From Armatimonadota bacterium (lineage in GTDB: Bacteria; Armatimonadota; UBA5829; DTLH01), in assembly GCA_029551395.1 (NCBI GenBank), contig JAKPFN010000115.1, positions 1 through 32,313 of the forward strand: 32,313 bases of DNA, read 5' to 3'. Shown piece after piece: positions 23,097 through 32,313 of the stretch. Under the pieces are notes generated by a model. The model was not told the DNA's origin. It did not search any database and worked only from the letters and a program-made list of their open reading frames with translations. The position numbers and the translations under genes are program-made. Within the stretch, counting starts at the first letter, position 1. Every line of letters begins with the position of its first letter.

Positions 23097-23186
<90 letters not shown>

Positions 23187-23248
23187 AGTCCCGTTTGTAG
23201 TTGATAGTTCGCAGTTCATAGGGCTTGCGAATTGTTTATGAGCATGTG

Positions 23249-23274
23249 AAAACCCGGCCCTTAGAGCCGGGTTT
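23249..23274 (-). terminator. Hairpin terminator after the tRNA-Arg pair
   Basis: AAACCCGGC (23250-23258) and GCCGGGTTT (23266-23274) form a perfect 9-bp stem with a seven-base loop. On the minus strand it is followed by only four T bases. It lies between the tRNA-Arg pair and tRNA-Ser, so it probably ends or attenuates the tRNA-Arg transcript, unless it is only a processing element. Confidence 0.6.
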
Positions 23275-23311
23275 CTCAAATATACTGGTAATATTAACTG
23301 CGAATTGGTCT

Positions 23312-23387
23312 TGGCGCCCTCGGAGGGAATCGAACCCCCTACGCCCTCCTTAGGACGGAGGCGCTCTATCCGGTGAGCTACGAGGGC
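23312..23387 (-). tRNA. tRNA-Arg (anticodon CCU)
   Basis: A clean 73-base cloverleaf plus encoded CCA. The acceptor GCCCTCG pairs with CGAGGGC, the D loop is ACCGGATA with A20, the anticodon arm is CCTCC-GTCCTAA-GGAGG, and the T loop is TTCGATT. Anticodon CCU reads AGG. It starts three bases after the CCA of tRNA-Arg(GCG). Confidence 0.95.
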
Positions 23388-23390
23388 AAA

Positions 23391-23466
23391 TGGCGCGCTT
23401 GGAGGGACTCGAACCCCCGACCTAAAGGTCCGCAACCTTTCGCTCTATCCTCTGAGCTACAAGCGC
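23391..23466 (-). tRNA. tRNA-Arg (anticodon GCG)
   Basis: A 73-base cloverleaf plus encoded CCA: acceptor GCGCTTG with CAAGCGC, D loop AGAGGATA with the A20 arginine identity base, anticodon arm AAAGG-TTGCGGA-CCTTT, variable loop AGGTC, T loop TTCGAGT. The anticodon is GCG with C35, reading CGC and perhaps CGU. Most bacteria use an ACG tRNA, edited to inosine, for these codons, so this isoacceptor is unusual. It is first in the tRNA transcript. Confidence 0.93.
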
Positions 23467-23582: not shown

Positions 23583-24221
23583 TTATCGGCATCCACTTGA
23601 TCCGCAGTTTTTCTGTGCAATTTTATCTTTGCAGGTGCATGCTGCGCCATCAGCGCAACCGCATTCGCAATTTGGAATGTCACATTTACCGATAGAACAA
23701 CCCATAAGCTTCATTGGGCACTGATCGCTCAGCATCATAGCGCAAATTGCAGGCTTACAGTTTCCCTGGCAACACTCGCAACCTTCAACGCAGGCTTGTC
23801 CGGCCGGCAAGTCCTTATGAACAGCAACCCACATATTTATAGTTCGAGCGTATAACTCTCCCTGGAGATCGTTCACACGTCCAACCAGCGCAGCGACTGC
23901 AGCTTCATTGACTGGTCTTGCAAGAAGAGCTGCATTAAGCTCATTGCGGGCATCAGCAAGCTGCTGGCGAAGACCGGCTGTATCTCTCACATAAGCATCG
24001 TAGACTTCCCTGGCAGCGCCTTCTGCGAAGCATTTACAGTTACCGCAATCCATTCGACCAGCACACGGCTTGCACATGGAACATCCGTCTTTACCGTCTG
24101 CAGCATGGACAGCAGCCATCTGATCTCCAGCCACCGCCGGGGTCTGGGATGTCACATATCCGAAGAATAATGCTGTGGCGAGTAATACAATTCCTGCTAA
24201 AACATAATACTTGTTTCGCAT
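23583..24221 (-). CDS. Secreted cysteine-rich protein with ZraP/CnrR-like helical core (putative metal-binding)
   Basis: 212 residues with a strong AGGAGG before the ATG. Residues 7-24 are a signal peptide or anchor (VLAGIVLLATALFFGYV). Six cysteines lie at 47-64 (CSMCKPC and CGNCKC). A cysteine-free helical segment at about 72-140 contains LRQQLADARNELNAALLA, RPVNEAAVAALVGRVNDLQG and KDLPAG, resembling the helical hairpin of periplasmic metal sensors and chaperones such as ZraP and CnrR. Sixteen more cysteines follow at 144-211 (ACVEGCECC, CDIPNCECGC, CTCKDK). Twenty-two cysteines in a secreted protein suggest metal binding or several disulfides. No metal transporter lies beside it. The combination of parts is not one I recognise. 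Confidence 0.75.
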   Translation of the reverse strand: MRNKYYVLAGIVLLATALFFGYVTSQTPAVAGDQMAAVHAADGKDGCSMCKPCAGRMDCGNCKCFAEGAAREVYDAYVRDTAGLRQQLADARNELNAALLARPVNEAAVAALVGRVNDLQGELYARTINMWVAVHKDLPAGQACVEGCECCQGNCKPAICAMMLSDQCPMKLMGCSIGKCDIPNCECGCADGAACTCKDKIAQKNCGSSGCR

Positions 24222-24473: not shown

Positions 24474-24625
24474 CTAACAAGGTAATCATACCGGCATGTT
24501 ACATTATGGCAGTTCAGGCCATTACAGGTAATAATACACCAAAAAATTTGCAGGAAATAACAGCCTGGTTGTCTAACAAGTCAATAATAATTCCAATCTG
24601 GTCAAGCATCTCCCAAGGAGGCGCA

Positions 24626-26692
24626 ATGTTCACGAAGATTCTGGTAGTCTTTTCAATCGCCTTAACAACACTGTCAATCGAAGCGCAAGCGGTGCAGATT
24701 GACGCCGAAGTGGGATTTGGAGGTAAGTGCAGACAAGGAACCTGGGTCCCCATAACTATCAACCTGAAGAACCCCACCAACGACACTATCGCTGGAACGA
24801 TTGCCACAATAGACCTCATTACAAAGCAGCCATCTACACATCGAACCGCCTTCGAACTAGGCGGACCATCAGAAAAACAATATACACACTATTGGCTGCC
24901 AGACCAGCCAGGCTCAGAAGCAATACTCAAGGTAATGGTGGATCGAGGACGCGTCAAAGATGAGAATAAATTGATCGTCAAGTGCCCTTACCAGTATGTC
25001 TATCCTGACAATATGTTTGTTACGGCTGTTGGGCCAGCACAGGCAACATTAAACTTTCTGGATGGTTTTCAGCTTGTCGCTCTAAAACCTGGACAGAGTG
25101 GAATACCGGGATCAACCTCCACTCAGATAAGAATAGAAGCAGGCTTGATAGATGCCGACAACATACCGGATAGACCTCTGGGCTACGATGGCGTTGATGT
25201 GCTTGTGCTTGCTGACCTGGCGCCATCTCGCACAGCCCCCGAGCAGCTTGCTGCCATTGGTATGTGGGTAGCAAGCGGCGGAACTCTCGTAGTGAACGGA
25301 GGCGCTGACTACCAGCGGTTGCAAAACAGCTTTTATGAGGAGATGCTGCCTGTCAAAGTAACCGGAGCCAGAGAACTGAGCAGCCTGAATTCATTAAACA
25401 CAATACCTAATATTGGCATACCAATAGAAAATGCCGCGAGCGTTGTCATTGAAAGCCAATTGAAACCCGATGCTAGGGCTCTTGTAATGCAAGAAGGCAT
25501 ACCCTTGGTTACAGTCTGGGACTATGGATTGGGAAGAGTCATTTTTCTAGCATTCGATTATACTTCACCAACACTTCGAGCTTGGGGCGGACAGATTAAT
25601 ATGTGGAAGGCGATTCTACTGCTATCGAGCAAGAGAGTGCCTTTAGCCTCACCGATAATTGATACTTCATCACACACAACAATGCCTGGTCTGCCACCGA
25701 CACAATCACCAATCCGGCCTCACCAGCGAGAATCAACAACTATGGGATCAATAGAGAGTGTTGCTGGAAACATGCCATCTATAACAACACCTTCACTCCA
25801 GATTATTCTTATATATCTTCTTGCATATCTGTTTTGTCTTGTACCTGTCAACTACTTCATTCTGACTAGAAAAAACCGGCGCGAACTTGCATGGATTACA
25901 ACTCCTGCTGTGATTATTCTATTTACGATAGGCGCGTATGGAATCGGCTATACAATGAAAGGAAGCAGGCTGCTGCTGAACACAATTTCCGTAACTGAAG
26001 CTTCCACAGGCATAAAGTATGCTGCAATCAATACTTATATTGGGATATTCTCACCAGCGCGCAGGTCTTACGGTATGGAAATTTACGATACATTTGCGGT
26101 TACATCAGAGCGTGAACAAGTTAATGCTAACCAATACTGGCTCGGCGGAACACAACAGCAGACTAGACGCCGAGGATGGAAACCTATAAATGTTCACTTT
26201 GCTGATACAACTGTTCTGCCGGAAATATCAATGGATATGTGGTCGATGCGATCATTCCGTGCTGAAAGTGGTTGCGATCTAGGAGGAGCTTTGGATGCTA
26301 ACCTAACCGTTGATACTAAAGCAAAAAAAGTAACGGGGAGGATAAGCAACAACACCAAATACGACCTCAACGACTGCCAGATTTTCATCGGTCAGCAGAC
26401 AGCAATGATTGATAACATAAGAAAGAATTCGGTAGTAGAAGTAGAATCTGACCTAAGTCATATTGGGTCTAATTCAATTCATGCCCAGCATAAGATTAAA
26501 TTATCTGAATTAGAGCTTGATCTGCTGACTTCTATATTGAACCAGCTACCAACTATGCCAAAGAACATCATAATAACAGCTTGGAGCGACCAATCACCTA
26601 CTCCAATTAAACTCAAAAGAGGGCACGCAGAACGCCAGTCTGCGAACTGCTTTTTATTTAGGGTCTCCCCAGATGGAGGTCAGATCAAATGA
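24626..26692 (+). CDS. Large membrane-anchored protein with glutamine-amidotransferase-like extracytoplasmic domain, unknown function
   Basis: 688 residues from the ATG at 24626, chosen because AAGGAGG lies just upstream and the protein then begins with a signal peptide (MFTKILVVFSIALTTLSIEA). Residues about 25-125 are a beta-sandwich-like region (GKCRQGTWVPITINLKN). Residues about 180-330 look like a class I glutamine-amidotransferase-type fold without an obvious catalytic Cys (DVLVLADLAPSRT, AIGMWVASGGTLVVNGGADY, FLAFDYTSPTLRAW). Two membrane helices lie near 395-450 (IILIYLLAYLFCLVPVNYFI, then ITTPAVIILFTIGAYGI), followed by another outside domain of about 230 residues. Similar proteins accompany ABC, MoxR and DUF58 genes in several phyla. 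The stop overlaps the ABC ATPase start (ATGA). Confidence 0.75.
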   Translation: MFTKILVVFSIALTTLSIEAQAVQIDAEVGFGGKCRQGTWVPITINLKNPTNDTIAGTIATIDLITKQPSTHRTAFELGGPSEKQYTHYWLPDQPGSEAILKVMVDRGRVKDENKLIVKCPYQYVYPDNMFVTAVGPAQATLNFLDGFQLVALKPGQSGIPGSTSTQIRIEAGLIDADNIPDRPLGYDGVDVLVLADLAPSRTAPEQLAAIGMWVASGGTLVVNGGADYQRLQNSFYEEMLPVKVTGARELSSLNSLNTIPNIGIPIENAASVVIESQLKPDARALVMQEGIPLVTVWDYGLGRVIFLAFDYTSPTLRAWGGQINMWKAILLLSSKRVPLASPIIDTSSHTTMPGLPPTQSPIRPHQRESTTMGSIESVAGNMPSITTPSLQIILIYLLAYLFCLVPVNYFILTRKNRRELAWITTPAVIILFTIGAYGIGYTMKGSRLLLNTISVTEASTGIKYAAINTYIGIFSPARRSYGMEIYDTFAVTSEREQVNANQYWLGGTQQQTRRRGWKPINVHFADTTVLPEISMDMWSMRSFRAESGCDLGGALDANLTVDTKAKKVTGRISNNTKYDLNDCQIFIGQQTAMIDNIRKNSVVEVESDLSHIGSNSIHAQHKIKLSELELDLLTSILNQLPTMPKNIIITAWSDQSPTPIKLKRGHAERQSANCFLFRVSPDGGQIK

Positions 26693-27624
26693 GCATAATC
26701 CTGCGAACCGAGCATCTTACAAAAGTCTATGGCCCACTCATTGCTGTAAACAACTTGTGCCTGGAGATAAATGCAGGCGATATTATGGGATTTATAGGGC
26801 CAAATGGCGCAGGGAAGACCACAACAATAAAGATGATTGCGACACTCCTGCGGCCTACTTCTGGCACTGCTTACGTTAACGATATGAATGTCCTGGAACA
26901 TCCTACGGAAGTAAGGCGGATGATCGGATACATGCCGGATTTCTTCGGCGTTTACGATGATGTCAAGACCTGGGAATACCTGGATTTCTTCGCTGCTGCT
27001 TATAAAATCCCATCTCACAAGCGAAAGCGTACCATAGACAATGTCCTGGAACTCACGGACTTGATGGGAAAGCGGGACGATTTCGTTGAAACCCTCAGCA
27101 GAGGTATGAAACAGCGTTTATGCCTTGCCAAGACTCTCCTGCATGACCCTGCAGTGCTGCTTCTGGACGAACCTGCATCAGGACTCGATCCCAGAGCGAG
27201 AATAGACATCAAAGAACTGCTAAAAGAGCTTAAATCGATGGGGAAAACCATCCTGATTTCAAGCCACATACTGCCGGAGTTGGCCGATTTCTGTAACAAG
27301 GTAGCTATTATTGAGCGAGGAGAGTTGATCGTAAGCGGAGACGTGGCTGAAATTATGGGGAAAGCCAGAGGTGGAAAACTACTGGAACTACGGCTGGTGG
27401 ACCGCTTCGAAGATGCTATTACTATGCTTTCAGAAATGCAGAATATCAGATCAGTAAAACAGGAAGACGGCATTCTCAGGATTCAATACACAGGAGAACC
27501 TGACCAGCAGTATGAGATTCTGACTGCCTTGGTCAGCTCAGGATTTAAAGTACAATCGTTCTGCGAGGCTCAAATTGACCTTGAGGACATTTTCATGAAA
27601 GTAACGACAGGTGCGGTAGCATGA
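26689..27624 (+). CDS. ABC transporter ATP-binding protein (ABC-2 type)
   Basis: 311 residues. The ATPase domain covers residues 1-225. Walker A is MGFIGPNGAGKTTTIKM, the signature is TLSRGMKQRLCLAKTLL, Walker B is PAVLLLDEPASGLDPRAR, and the switch His is in ISSHILPE. A C-terminal extension of about 85 residues (LELRLVDRFEDAITMLSEMQ onward) is typical of ATPases paired with ABC-2 permeases. The cargo is unknown. The gene overlaps both neighbours by four bases, so all three are translated together and probably form one complex. Confidence 0.92.
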   Translation: MSIILRTEHLTKVYGPLIAVNNLCLEINAGDIMGFIGPNGAGKTTTIKMIATLLRPTSGTAYVNDMNVLEHPTEVRRMIGYMPDFFGVYDDVKTWEYLDFFAAAYKIPSHKRKRTIDNVLELTDLMGKRDDFVETLSRGMKQRLCLAKTLLHDPAVLLLDEPASGLDPRARIDIKELLKELKSMGKTILISSHILPELADFCNKVAIIERGELIVSGDVAEIMGKARGGKLLELRLVDRFEDAITMLSEMQNIRSVKQEDGILRIQYTGEPDQQYEILTALVSSGFKVQSFCEAQIDLEDIFMKVTTGAVA

Positions 27625-29282
27625 CACCATTACAGACAACATTAAAATCTGCATTCCAAGGAATTAAAGGAGTAAAGTACGAAAATCCGGTAGTTACCAA
27701 GGAACTCCGGACACGAATGCGGGGCGCAAAGGCCCATTGGCTGATGATGGGATATGTAGTACTGCTTGGAACGTGCTTAATGATCACATATTACAGCCAA
27801 TGGATAGTTACTGGAGGACAATTCAGCCCTGATTCCTGGGTTAACACCCGCTTCGGATTCAGGTTGTTTTCGGCTCTGACCTGGTGTCAGGCGATTGTGA
27901 TCGCATTGATCGTCCCCAGCTTAACTGCCGGATCGCTTACTCTTGAGCGGGAACAGCAGACCATTGAGATGCTTTCCTTAACAGCGCTTTCGGCTAGAAA
28001 CATCGTTGCTGGAAAGATTACTTCAGCGATGCTATTCATCCTGATGTTGCTTGCATGTTCGCTTCCGCTGTCAGGCATTTGTCTCATGTTTGGCAGTATT
28101 TCGCCGCTTGAGATTCTTGTAACATATCTGATGCTTATAGCATGGGCATTCTTGTTCTCCTCTATAGGAGTATATTTCTCTGCTATTTCCAAAAAAACAT
28201 CAGGAGCCTCACTTGCGGCATTCGGCACGATTGGGATGTATACCTGGTTCACAACAGGGTTTGCAGCCAGCTCCATGTATGGTGGAGCAGATATTGCTTT
28301 TGCTGGGCTAAGTGCTTGTACAGCAGCCTCTCTGAGTGTATCAATGGCTGAAGTATTTGGCGTTAGTATACCTGTCGCATTGGTAGGCATTTTACTCAAT
28401 GTAAGCATTGGATTATTGTTGTTGACCAGTGCAACTACACAGATTCCTTATCATCGAGAGCAGAGGTCTGTCCATATCAGGTTGCTGATCCTGGGGATAT
28501 TTCTCGTTAACATGTTTCTGTTTGTTGGCAATGTATTTGCCAGTCTTGGCGTATACAATACGCAGGATTTGATACATGCAGCATTCATTGTCTTAATGGT
28601 CTCTATATTTCCATTTATCTCTGTATTCTCGACTGGCCCACACCGCAAGGATATCAGCCTTTGGAAGCAGCTATTCTCCGGTCGATGGAAGATAAAAATC
28701 TTCGAAAACCGTCCTGTTGGCGGATTCTGGTTCCTGATTGCATGGTGGATAATTGGATGTATAGCTATTTTGATATGTATCTCTATAGCGGCACCAGGTG
28801 TTGTATTAACAGTCTTTCATCGACCTGCTACCCAGCCAGGCGTTGATCAAATAAATGAACTCGATGCAATATTCCAGATTGCAGTTGGGATTTTGGGATC
28901 AGTGATAGCCTTTACATCGATAGGGTTGTTGGCATCCACCATTGTGCCTAACCGCCAGTCAGCGGCAGCAATCCTTTTGCTAGTAATGGTTCTGGCATGG
29001 ATGGGGTATCCTATCTTAGCATGGCAGACTGAAAACTCATATGACTTCACATGGGGAAAAGCACACGGGCTAAAATGGCAACTTACCTATTTTTATCCAT
29101 ATCTGCCTATAAAAGCAGCTCTTGGTGAATGGAAGCCTGGTAGTAATGCACCTTATCTGTTGACATCTCCCAAGACAACTTGGGTTGGTTGTGCTGTGGC
29201 ATGGGGAATTGTGTCAATAGCAGCATTATCACTTGCTAATCTGCTAAACAAGCGAAAGCTAGGGATACCGGATGATCGATGA
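27621..29282 (+). CDS. ABC-2 type transporter permease
   Basis: 553 residues with about ten to twelve hydrophobic segments. The N-terminal cytoplasmic part reads NPVVTKELRTRMRGAKAHWL, the usual opening of ABC-2/NosY-like permeases. It is followed by the conserved SLTLEREQQTIEMLSLTALS, ARNIVAGKI and a first set of membrane helices. A second set after about residue 360 makes it a long permease, roughly twice the smallest family members. It is coupled to the ATPase by an ATGA overlap and overlaps the coiled-coil gene by 11 bases. The substrate is unknown. Confidence 0.9.
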   Translation: MTPLQTTLKSAFQGIKGVKYENPVVTKELRTRMRGAKAHWLMMGYVVLLGTCLMITYYSQWIVTGGQFSPDSWVNTRFGFRLFSALTWCQAIVIALIVPSLTAGSLTLEREQQTIEMLSLTALSARNIVAGKITSAMLFILMLLACSLPLSGICLMFGSISPLEILVTYLMLIAWAFLFSSIGVYFSAISKKTSGASLAAFGTIGMYTWFTTGFAASSMYGGADIAFAGLSACTAASLSVSMAEVFGVSIPVALVGILLNVSIGLLLLTSATTQIPYHREQRSVHIRLLILGIFLVNMFLFVGNVFASLGVYNTQDLIHAAFIVLMVSIFPFISVFSTGPHRKDISLWKQLFSGRWKIKIFENRPVGGFWFLIAWWIIGCIAILICISIAAPGVVLTVFHRPATQPGVDQINELDAIFQIAVGILGSVIAFTSIGLLASTIVPNRQSAAAILLLVMVLAWMGYPILAWQTENSYDFTWGKAHGLKWQLTYFYPYLPIKAALGEWKPGSNAPYLLTSPKTTWVGCAVAWGIVSIAALSLANLLNKRKLGIPDDR

Positions 29283-30588
29283 GAAGTTCGAGCAAGATTT
29301 AGTGCAGATGAGGCGCAGAATCAGGTTTCTGCTGGTTCAAAAGCGTGCGTTGATGGCTGGAACAGCAGGAGCTGGGCTTGCTACGGTACTGCTCATCGTA
29401 TCGAAGTGGCGTTATGAGCTTGGCGAGCCGGTTTTACTCGCAGGAATAATCTTCTTTGCCTTGATTGCCGGAGTTGTCTGGGGCTTTCTATATAAACTGA
29501 ACCACTTCGTAACAGCCAGAGCCACAGAAAGCCGATTGGACCTGAAAGAGCGGCTATCCAGTGCCGTTGCGCTTGCAGACCAGGACTCGGAGATGATCCG
29601 GTCGCTTATCGATGACGCTTCCAGACACATGAACGGCATTAATCCCAAAGAAGTGTTCCCTTACCGGTTCACGAAAGAAATGGCAGCCTTTGGATTAATG
29701 CTTGTTATACTCTTTGGCACCTACTTTATCCCTCAGATCCCTGCACTGCAGTCTAAAGACAGGCGCGAAGAAGTCAAGGTGATGATGAACGAAGGTAAAC
29801 GGCTGGAAAAACTGGCAAAGAACCTCGAAGAACGAGTGTCACCTGACAATGAGATAGCAAAACAGATTGCCGAGAACATGAAAAAACTCGGCAAAAAGCT
29901 GCAGTCCGGCAGGATGACCCGAAAGCAGGCTATCCTCGAGATGCGCAAGCTGGACAAAGAGATAAAAGATGCTCAGGACAGGATAGCCGCAAGGAATCAA
30001 TCGCCTAAGTCGATGGCTGAAGCAGGTCAAGAACTCCAAAATCTGTCCGCTGCTTTTGCTGGCAAATTGCAGGAACAGGTGGAAAAGGAACTGAAGGAAA
30101 AACTGGCTTCCGGGATAAAAGACCCAAAGCTGGAAGAACTGCAGAAACGCCTGAAAGACCTGCAAGAATCAAAAGGGGAACTCACACCGGAACAAATCAA
30201 GCAGATGGAGAAGAAGGTTCAGGATTACCTGAAATCTCAACAGAACATCTCCGTACCTCCAGAGTTATCTGCACTTATGGCCGAACTTATTAAGAACGAA
30301 GATTTTACAAAGGCTCAGGAGTTGCTGTCCGAACTTTCCAAAAAGCTGAACCAGCAGGGCAGTAAAATGTCTCAAGAAGACCTGAAAAACCTCGAAAAGC
30401 AGCTAAAAGCGCTTGCTGAGGCACTGAAAGACACTGACCTTGACCAGCTTTCCAAGACGTTGCGGGAAGCAGCCGAACAGCTTGCAAAAATGGACCCAGA
30501 AGAAGCTGCAGAACGGCTCAAGCAGATGCAGGCAGCATTCAATATGGCCAAGGACTTGAAAGAACTTAAAGAAGCAGGCGGTGGGTGA
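29272..30588 (+). CDS. Membrane-anchored coiled-coil protein, interrupted by an in-frame TGA
   Basis: 438 residues up to a TGA. Two membrane helices lie at about 28-72 (LMAGTAGAGLATVLLIVS and VLLAGIIFFALIAGVVWGFL) and a third at about 135-152 (AAFGLMLVILFGTYFIPQIP). Residues 160-435 form a long coiled coil dense in Lys, Glu and Gln (ELKEKLASGIKDPKLEELQK and similar). The layout matches a family of uncharacterised proteins found with ABC, MoxR and DUF58 genes in planctomycetes and related phyla. Those proteins continue through a Gly/Cys-rich linker into a C-terminal domain. Here the frame reaches GGG, meets TGA at 30586, and continues open for 133 codons encoding just such a linker and domain. 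Confidence 0.8.
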   Translation: MIDEKFEQDLVQMRRRIRFLLVQKRALMAGTAGAGLATVLLIVSKWRYELGEPVLLAGIIFFALIAGVVWGFLYKLNHFVTARATESRLDLKERLSSAVALADQDSEMIRSLIDDASRHMNGINPKEVFPYRFTKEMAAFGLMLVILFGTYFIPQIPALQSKDRREEVKVMMNEGKRLEKLAKNLEERVSPDNEIAKQIAENMKKLGKKLQSGRMTRKQAILEMRKLDKEIKDAQDRIAARNQSPKSMAEAGQELQNLSAAFAGKLQEQVEKELKEKLASGIKDPKLEELQKRLKDLQESKGELTPEQIKQMEKKVQDYLKSQQNISVPPELSALMAELIKNEDFTKAQELLSELSKKLNQQGSKMSQEDLKNLEKQLKALAEALKDTDLDQLSKTLREAAEQLAKMDPEEAAERLKQMQAAFNMAKDLKELKEAGGG

Positions 30589-30990
30589 CAGAGTTCCATC
30601 TCCGCACTCGTTGGGTGTGGAATTGAAAATGGCGGTAGCCAAGGCAGCGGAAAAGAAGGCGATAAAATGGGTAGTGGAGGCTTGTCGGGTAAACCGGGCA
30701 GTGCAGGCGGCCCGGGAAGCGGAACTTATGAAGATGTAAAAGGCCAGATTGAGAACAGCAAAGAAGGCTACATCACCAAATCATCTTCCCTTGTCGGTAA
30801 GGAAGGCTCTATTTACGTGTCGGGGACAACCAAAGGCGCTCCCGATGAGCCAGGTTCATCATCTGTACCTTATTATGAGGTATATGGAGATTACAAGAAG
30901 AGCGCAGAAAAAGCTTTGTCCAGAGAAGACGTACCCTCAACCCATCGCCAGGGAGTCCGTAAATACTTCGACTCGTTGAATAAAGAATAA
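30589..30990 (+). pseudogene. C-terminal part of the coiled-coil gene beyond the in-frame TGA (or a separate small gene from 30667)
   Basis: This stretch is in the same frame as the preceding gene and has no other stop until TAA at 30988-30990. It begins QSSISALVGCGIENGGSQGS, runs through a Gly-rich linker (GSGGLSGKPGSAGGPGSG), and ends in a compact domain with VPYYEVYGDYKKSAEKALSR and THRQGVRKYFDSL, a pattern I associate with the C-termini of the same family. It could be reached by TGA readthrough or recoding, or be disconnected by a nonsense mutation or sequencing error. It could also be translated alone from the ATG at 30667, where AAGG lies about eight bases upstream, giving 107 residues. 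Confidence 0.6.
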
Positions 30991-31069: not shown

Positions 31070-32068
31070 ATGCAGATAGAGGAACGGATTGGAAAGTTCA
31101 GACAGGATTTCAATACACTGAAGGCTGAGATCAGCCGGATGATAGTCGGGCAGGAAGAAATAGTAGAAGGTGTTATCGTATGCCTTCTTGCTGATGGTCA
31201 TGCGCTCCTTGAAGGCGTTCCAGGACTTGGTAAGACGCTCCTTGTCCGCACACTAGCTCAAGCTATGGACCTGAAGTTCTCCAGGATTCAATTCACGCCT
31301 GACCTGATGCCTGCAGACATCGTTGGAACTAATATTCTGATAGAGGATGATTCTGGCAGGAGATGCTTCCAGTTCCAACCAGGGCCGGTGTTTGCAAATA
31401 TCATCCTGGCTGACGAGATCAACCGTGCTACGCCAAAAACTCAGTCTGCGATGCTCGAAGCGATGCAGGAGCACTCTGTGACGGTTGCAGGAGATATCCG
31501 CAAACTGCAGGAGCCGTTCCTGGTCCTTGCTACACAGAACCCGATAGAGATGGAAGGTACTTATCCGCTCCCAGAAGCCCAGTTGGACCGGTTCCTTTTC
31601 AAGCTGATGGTAAGTTTCCCGACACTTGACGAATTGGGTACCATCCTCGACCGAACGACAAAGTCTGAGCAGGTTGAAATCAACAAAGTAACCAATCCTG
31701 AGACAGTGCTTGAGATGAGGCGGCTTGCCAGAGAAGTCGAACTTGCCCCGCATATAAAGGAGTTTGCGCTTAAGGTAGTGCTGGCTACGCATCCTGACTC
31801 CGAGTACGCAACGGATATGGTAAAGAGATTTGTCCGCTACGGGTCCAGCCCCAGAGGCGCGCAGGCTCTCGCGCTGACATCCAAGGTAAACGCACTTTTG
31901 GACGACCGGCGCAATGTGGGCTTCGATGACATCAAAAAGGTAGCCAAACCTGCCCTGCGGCACCGAATCATCCTCAACTTCGAAGGCGAAGCTGAGGGAA
32001 TATCCACCGACGCGATTGTTGCGGATATACTGGAAAAAGTGACACAGGGAGATGAGATTGTGGTATAA
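31070..32068 (+). CDS. MoxR-family AAA+ ATPase
   Basis: 332 residues. Walker A is ALLEGVPGLGKTLLVRTLAQ, Walker B ANIILADEINRATPKTQSAM, sensor 1 LATQNPIEMEGTYPLPEAQL, and the arginine-finger region LDRFLFKLMVSFPTLDE. The C-terminal lid helices have RFVRYGSSPRGAQALALTSK, typical of MoxR. MoxR proteins act as chaperone-like ATPases for partner proteins with von Willebrand domains, commonly the DUF58 protein encoded next. AGAGGA lies eight bases before the ATG. It is separated by 79 bases from the preceding gene, the only sizeable gap in this operon. Confidence 0.95.
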   Translation: MQIEERIGKFRQDFNTLKAEISRMIVGQEEIVEGVIVCLLADGHALLEGVPGLGKTLLVRTLAQAMDLKFSRIQFTPDLMPADIVGTNILIEDDSGRRCFQFQPGPVFANIILADEINRATPKTQSAMLEAMQEHSVTVAGDIRKLQEPFLVLATQNPIEMEGTYPLPEAQLDRFLFKLMVSFPTLDELGTILDRTTKSEQVEINKVTNPETVLEMRRLAREVELAPHIKEFALKVVLATHPDSEYATDMVKRFVRYGSSPRGAQALALTSKVNALLDDRRNVGFDDIKKVAKPALRHRIILNFEGEAEGISTDAIVADILEKVTQGDEIVV

Positions 32069-32143
32069 CTCCGCAATCATCCGTGTAAATCCGTGCTTAA
32101 CGACCTTAACATAACGCAACCAGATACCGAACCGGAGGACTTT

Positions 32144-32313
32144 TTGTCTCCGGAATTTCTGCGTAAGCTTGAACAGCTATCGCTCGTGGCTAAACGTGTC
32201 TTTCCTGGCCGGATGCGCGGCGAGCGTCGGTCAAGTAAACGCGGCGCATCGGTCGAATTCGCTGACTACCGCAACTATACCATCGGTGATGACTTCCGCC
32301 GGGTGGATTGGAA
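32144..32313 (+). CDS. DUF58 domain protein, N-terminal part (cut by window edge)
   Basis: The first 56 codons of a DUF58 protein: SPEFLRKLEQLSLVAKRV, then FPGRMRGERRSSKRG and the diagnostic SVEFADYRNYTIGDDFRRVD. Full proteins have about 290-320 residues with a von Willebrand type A-like domain and work with MoxR. I chose the TTG at 32144 because GGAGG lies five bases upstream; the same frame is open back to a GTG at 32093 and to the moxR stop at 32066-32068, but neither start has a ribosome site. It directly follows moxR. Confidence 0.88.
   Translation, partial: MSPEFLRKLEQLSLVAKRVFPGRMRGERRSSKRGASVEFADYRNYTIGDDFRRVDW

Follow-up and report, generated by a model that had tools for sequence, protein, structure and literature searches.

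Does the TGA inside a membrane protein gene of an Armatimonadota bacterium end the protein, disable the gene, or carry another meaning? We addressed this question in a window (the whole stretch of DNA analysed, 32,313 nucleotides) taken from a 3.58 Mb genome in 165 contigs that is 98.7% complete.

A membrane protein gene with a single in-frame TGA

The frame from 29272 to 30990 on the + strand contains a single in-frame stop, the TGA at 30586-30588, which corresponds to residue 439 and follows the residues AGGG. This reproduces what the first-pass annotation had described, a frame open except for one TGA. The product has 572 residues if the UGA is read as selenocysteine (Sec) and 438 if translation stops there. 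The features of the locus are as follows.

29272..30990, + strand: predicted selenoprotein gene, open except for the TGA at 30586 and aligned over its full length with homologues
30586..30588, + strand: UGA codon for the predicted selenocysteine, residue 439; UGA in 39/138 genomes, Cys in close relatives
30589..30987, + strand: coding sequence 3′ of the UGA, with a Gly-rich linker containing Cys449 and a C-terminal motif; invariant columns in alignments A1 and A2
30601..30621, + strand: predicted bacterial SECIS hairpin, according to a published rule (PMC13188914), with a register kept in the ten closest genes

We predict, with a probability of roughly 0.95, that the UGA at 30586 is decoded as Sec. 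Sec insertion had so far been raised as conceivable, and we favour it because the position is conserved, the sel machinery is present, Sec/Cys pairs occur, a SECIS-type hairpin follows the codon and TAA or TAG breaks are absent. In the proposed mechanism SelB would use Sec-tRNA(UCA) and the hairpin (30601-30621) to decode the UGA as Sec, and a full-length membrane protein would be made instead of a 438-residue fragment.

The TGA recurs at the same site across the phylum

Using the read-through protein as the query, 61 related genomes were searched first, which yielded nine close homologues (37-42% identity) spread over several families of the class. Each of the nine carries one in-frame TGA and no more, at the identical place, and the more distant homologues have either a TGA or none. 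Extending the search to the phylum, we found the family in 152 of 291 Armatimonadota genomes; homologous genes were retrieved and inspected from 138 of the 152, and 128 of these genes are full-length. A TGA is present at the equivalent site in 39 of the 138 genomes, which represent at least 14 family-level groups, and the residues preceding it are mostly AGGT (17/39) or AGGG (6/39). All 128 full-length genes are free of interrupting TAA and TAG codons. A contig search with one peptide pattern recovered eight relatives, apparently genomes that the other searches had already covered.

Furthermore, the frame is conserved beyond the TGA. The residues past it align with homologues of 25-30% identity without any frame break, and this segment holds some of the most conserved positions in the entire protein, with P524, V537, Y541, E546, E552, P555, Y565 and F566 of the C-terminal motif invariant in alignments A1 and A2.

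Three of the 39 genes with a UGA at the site carry a second TGA nearby. In these loci, L100 (G050), L101 (G036) and L136 (G075), the two in-frame TGA codons are 7 to 15 codons apart, as in PGGT-U-NSPGGT-U-EG, and the products are possibly double selenoproteins.

Exchange between UGA and Cys

Comparison with orthologues, which the first-pass annotation had proposed as a check, shows UGA at the site in the 39 genomes and Cys in close relatives. In alignment A1, ten rows have UGA in the site column and three have Cys; the alignment was made with C substituted for U, which favours a Sec/Cys column match. A pair that does not depend on the alignment is found in family f6, where AGGT-U-RACG in G055 corresponds to AGGT-C-QSGG in G028. 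In addition, G044 has a linker Cys where seven other species of the same genus, G030 among them, have UGA. The gene tree (FastTree) requires some 15 switches into or out of the UGA state, counted without regard to direction, and 13 of them are forced by well-supported branches. Such repeated exchange offers a natural series for studying when Sec is worth its cost.

The expectation that the family usually has Cys in this linker holds for the close homologues that lack Sec, but not for some distant members, which have no linker Cys; some homologues have neither Sec nor Cys at the site.

Selenocysteine machinery in the source genome and in the phylum

We found the complete machinery in the source genome: a tRNA-Sec with a UCA anticodon (selC), selA (576 bits), selB (368 bits, with the SelB winged-helix domain) and selD (378 bits), the C-terminus of SelA continuing on the contig that bears selD and selB. 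This answers the suggestion that selA, selB and selC be sought, and adds selD.

Across the phylum, tRNA-Sec is present in 154 of 291 genomes. It is found in 37 of the 39 genomes with the UGA form, compared with 48 of the 99 without it (Fisher p = 7e-8, uncorrected for relatedness), which argues that the machinery would be close to necessary for the UGA form and not sufficient for it. When the gene tree is reduced to independent pairs, the association of UGA with tRNA-Sec keeps its direction, about 4 to 1, but loses significance, as the members of most sister pairs are alike in tRNA-Sec. The two UGA-form genomes in which tRNA-Sec was not found are G046 (L022) and G229 (L070), 88% and 77% complete, respectively; a full SelB match was not found in G005, an assembly of 460 contigs.

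Other observations concern the selenium genes of the source genome. On contig C66, L056:176-1756 encodes a SelD that continues at its C-terminus into a carboxymuconolactone decarboxylase/AhpD-like domain bearing a CxxC motif, and this gene sits directly upstream of selB. The SelD of this genome appears to have Cys rather than Sec. No in-frame TGA was found within the matched domains of its peroxiredoxins (AhpC/Prx) and molybdopterin oxidoreductases.

A SECIS-type hairpin follows the UGA

The bacterial SECIS rule specifies a stem of 4-16 bp, a loop of 3-9 nt with a G in its first two positions, a distance of 16-37 nt from the UGA and an energy at or below -7.5 (PMC13188914). The hairpin of the window satisfies this rule: its arms UCCGCACUC (30601-30609) and GGGUGUGGA (30613-30621) form 9 pairs around the 3-nt loop GUU (30610-30612), which begins with G and lies 21 nt from the UGA, and the energy is -11.6 kcal/mol. 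A stem-loop after the TGA had been noticed before, and it is indeed present; the six pairs then counted were too few. The early loop G that had been reported as lacking is there, since two further inner pairs (U-G and C-G) close the loop to GUU. Rfam matched three tRNAs in the window and nothing else.

The rule is passed by 33 of the 39 UGAs, and the other six miss the strict, unbulged form of it. By comparison, it is passed by 52 of 730 (7%) out-of-frame TGAs of the same genes and by 27 of 179 (15%) linker Cys codons of the homologues without UGA. Furthermore, when the hairpin register is held fixed across the ten closest genes, 69 of 70 pairs are kept, compared with 11-37 when the register is slid. 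Because part of the stem also encodes conserved residues, synonymous recodings were tested, and 16 of the 39 hairpins are stronger than 95% of their recodings (combined p = 1.7e-15, over genes that are related to each other). In distant lineages, whose downstream amino acids differ, a GGUC or AGUC loop recurs at a distance from the UGA that hardly changes, and recognition by SelB would best explain this recurrence.

Alternatives to selenocysteine insertion

The alternative that survives best, and that we still consider improbable, is a programmed or leaky readthrough in which an ordinary near-cognate tRNA, stimulated by the hairpin, reads the UGA and gives a short and a long form without Sec. 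The codon stands in the UGA-C context in 21 of the 39 genes, a hairpin does follow it, and both forms could be useful; however, the context is UGA-A or UGA-G in the other 18, nearly all UGA-form genomes have tRNA-Sec, close relatives substitute Cys, and not Trp or Arg, at the site, and the hairpin has the loop G of a SECIS at the spacing of a SECIS.

Still less probable are two separate genes, the first ending at the UGA and the second starting at the ATG at 30667, where an ORF of 107 aa begins. The Cys-type homologues are single proteins that span the site without interruption, and an internal start would leave the conserved Sec/Cys position and the hairpin unexplained.

A nonsense mutation, pseudogene or assembly error, alternatives that a draft metagenome assembly with just one in-frame stop had left on the table, has a negligible probability and is refuted by the identical codon recurring in 39 genomes that differ in assembly and family. 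Collectively, the recurrent TGA, the absence of TAA and TAG and the conserved downstream residues and frame exclude the error, pseudogene and two-gene readings, and we retain selenocysteine insertion as the predicted decoding of the UGA.

Genes surrounding the predicted selenoprotein

The genes on the same strand around the predicted selenoprotein gene are as follows.

24506..26692, + strand: membrane protein with a DUF7408 domain (Pfam PF24157, 3.8e-9); the same neighbour is found in L089
26689..27624, + strand: ABC transporter ATPase, an ORF that is by eye the counterpart of L088:424-1350 (ABC_tran)
27621..29282, + strand: ABC-2 permease (Pfam PF12679, 2.1e-8)
31070..32068, + strand: MoxR-type AAA ATPase (Pfam AAA_3, 1.8e-63, and AAA_lid_2)
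32096..32313, + strand: start of a DUF58 gene that runs past the end of the window, by eye near-identical to the DUF58 N-terminus of L088:7740-8813

The order in the window is thus DUF7408 membrane protein, ABC ATPase, ABC-2 permease, selenoprotein, MoxR and the start of DUF58, and the ATG of the selenoprotein gene at 29272 overlaps the stop of the ABC-2 permease gene, as expected within an operon. Pfam gave no match for the DUF58 fragment, which is too short. The orthologous loci L088 and L089 (the latter assigned largely by eye) show this order too, followed by two vWA protein genes, the first of which has a BatA N-terminal domain in L088 according to Pfam. Of the genes typical of Bat/MoxR operons, MoxR and a partial DUF58 are present in the window, which ends before any BatA/vWA genes could follow; these are seen in the orthologous loci only.

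The remainder of the window has further features on the - strand. A long block at 507-21373 appears by eye to encode outer-membrane biogenesis (LpxC, LpxD, FabZ, LpxA, LpxB, LpxK, a Kdo transferase, BamA and a TamB-like protein), which is consistent with a diderm member of Armatimonadota. A tRNA cluster at 23097-23466 comprises tRNA-Ser(CGA), tRNA-Arg(CCT) and tRNA-Arg(GCG), and 23583-24221 encodes a small, Cys-rich, secreted-looking protein with many CxxC-like pairs, the middle part of which matches Pfam Metal_resist.

Protein architecture and a possible redox role

The protein consists of three membrane helices, a coiled coil, the predicted Sec, a Gly-rich linker and conserved C-terminal helices. 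An AlphaFold2 model with Cys in place of Sec has a mean pLDDT of 69 (about 70-85 in the helical part) and a pTM of 0.41. In this model the helices 4-44, 53-73 and 135-155 contain the three hydrophobic stretches and are followed by many more helices, residue 439 is near the end of the helix 409-448, the linker 450-539 is disordered and two helices form the C-terminus. A sequence search of the PDB gave one chance coiled-coil match. An N-terminus inside would put Sec439 outside the cytoplasm, a location that we regard as somewhat more probable than not; the charges do not settle the topology.

A Cys is often found near the Sec, as U-x9-C in the window gene and as U-x2-C, U-x4-C or U-x5-C elsewhere. 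We give about even chances to a role as redox centre for Sec439, with which the coiled coil ends and which would often act with the nearby Cys. Under this hypothesis, Sec439 might be a redox sensor or thiol-disulfide exchanger for the co-encoded ABC-2 transporter and the MoxR, DUF58 and BatA-type vWA proteins. Counting against a redox role are the location of Sec in a low-complexity linker with no known redox fold, and the homologues that have neither Sec nor Cys.

According to an old proposal, Bat proteins would export reducing power or act as reductants of damaged proteins in the periplasm; deletion of bat in Leptospira biflexa gave no oxidative-stress phenotype, and the role of Bat in aerotolerance and oxidative stress is disputed (PMC3557215). 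A redox role for Sec439 is favoured because a Sec paired with a nearby Cys is the chemistry that the old proposal lacked. More speculatively, and with the odds against it, the family may supply the redox activity of a MoxR/Bat-type envelope system, in which an extracytoplasmic Sec on a coiled-coil stalk would move or sense reducing equivalents. If true, the earlier idea of Bat proteins as suppliers of reducing power to the periplasm would gain a chemical footing. The link of selenium to MoxR/Bat-type operons makes the idea of an envelope redox function testable.

Novelty and comparison with known systems

Table 1 of a 2026 review (PMC13188914) catalogues 119 families and subfamilies of prokaryotic selenoproteins, and none of the entries fits the Armatimonadota protein in a comparison by description and with NCBIfam models. 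Pfam and NCBIfam 20.0 scans of 23 members gave no convincing match, only chance or coiled-coil matches, and a literature search found no relevant paper linking a selenoprotein with MoxR or Armatimonadota. According to the review, a groundwater MAG survey that it cites (ref. 66) contains further unvalidated candidates (PMC13188914). We propose, without certainty of priority, a new selenoprotein family that would use the standard Sec insertion mechanism; the MAG survey may already list some of the genes. Such a family would extend across the phylum and lie apart from the thioredoxin-like folds that predominate among the catalogued selenoproteins. It also indicates a systematic mis-annotation, in which the UGA forms would be shortened by about a quarter.

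The catalogued families were predicted by the same criteria as used here, namely Sec/Cys pairs, bacterial SECIS elements and UGA homologues in other organisms (PMC13188914). The predicted decoding shares with the fdhF/fdnG-type recoding of E. coli SelA, SelB, SelD, tRNA-Sec, a UGA codon and a hairpin directly downstream with a loop G, mostly 19-23 nt from the UGA. The loop GGUC(U), found in many relatives, presumably matches the fdhF loop. Formate dehydrogenases are, however, unrelated to the Armatimonadota protein, whose Sec lies between a coiled coil and a Gly-rich linker and not at a metal site.

Taken together with their orthologues, the Armatimonadota loci share MoxR, DUF58, a BatA-domain vWA protein and a further vWA protein with the Bat (Bacteroides aerotolerance)/MoxR-DUF58-vWA operons. 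No selenoprotein is reported in the Bat operons of PMC3557215, whereas the Armatimonadota loci add an ABC-2 transporter and a predicted coiled-coil selenoprotein.
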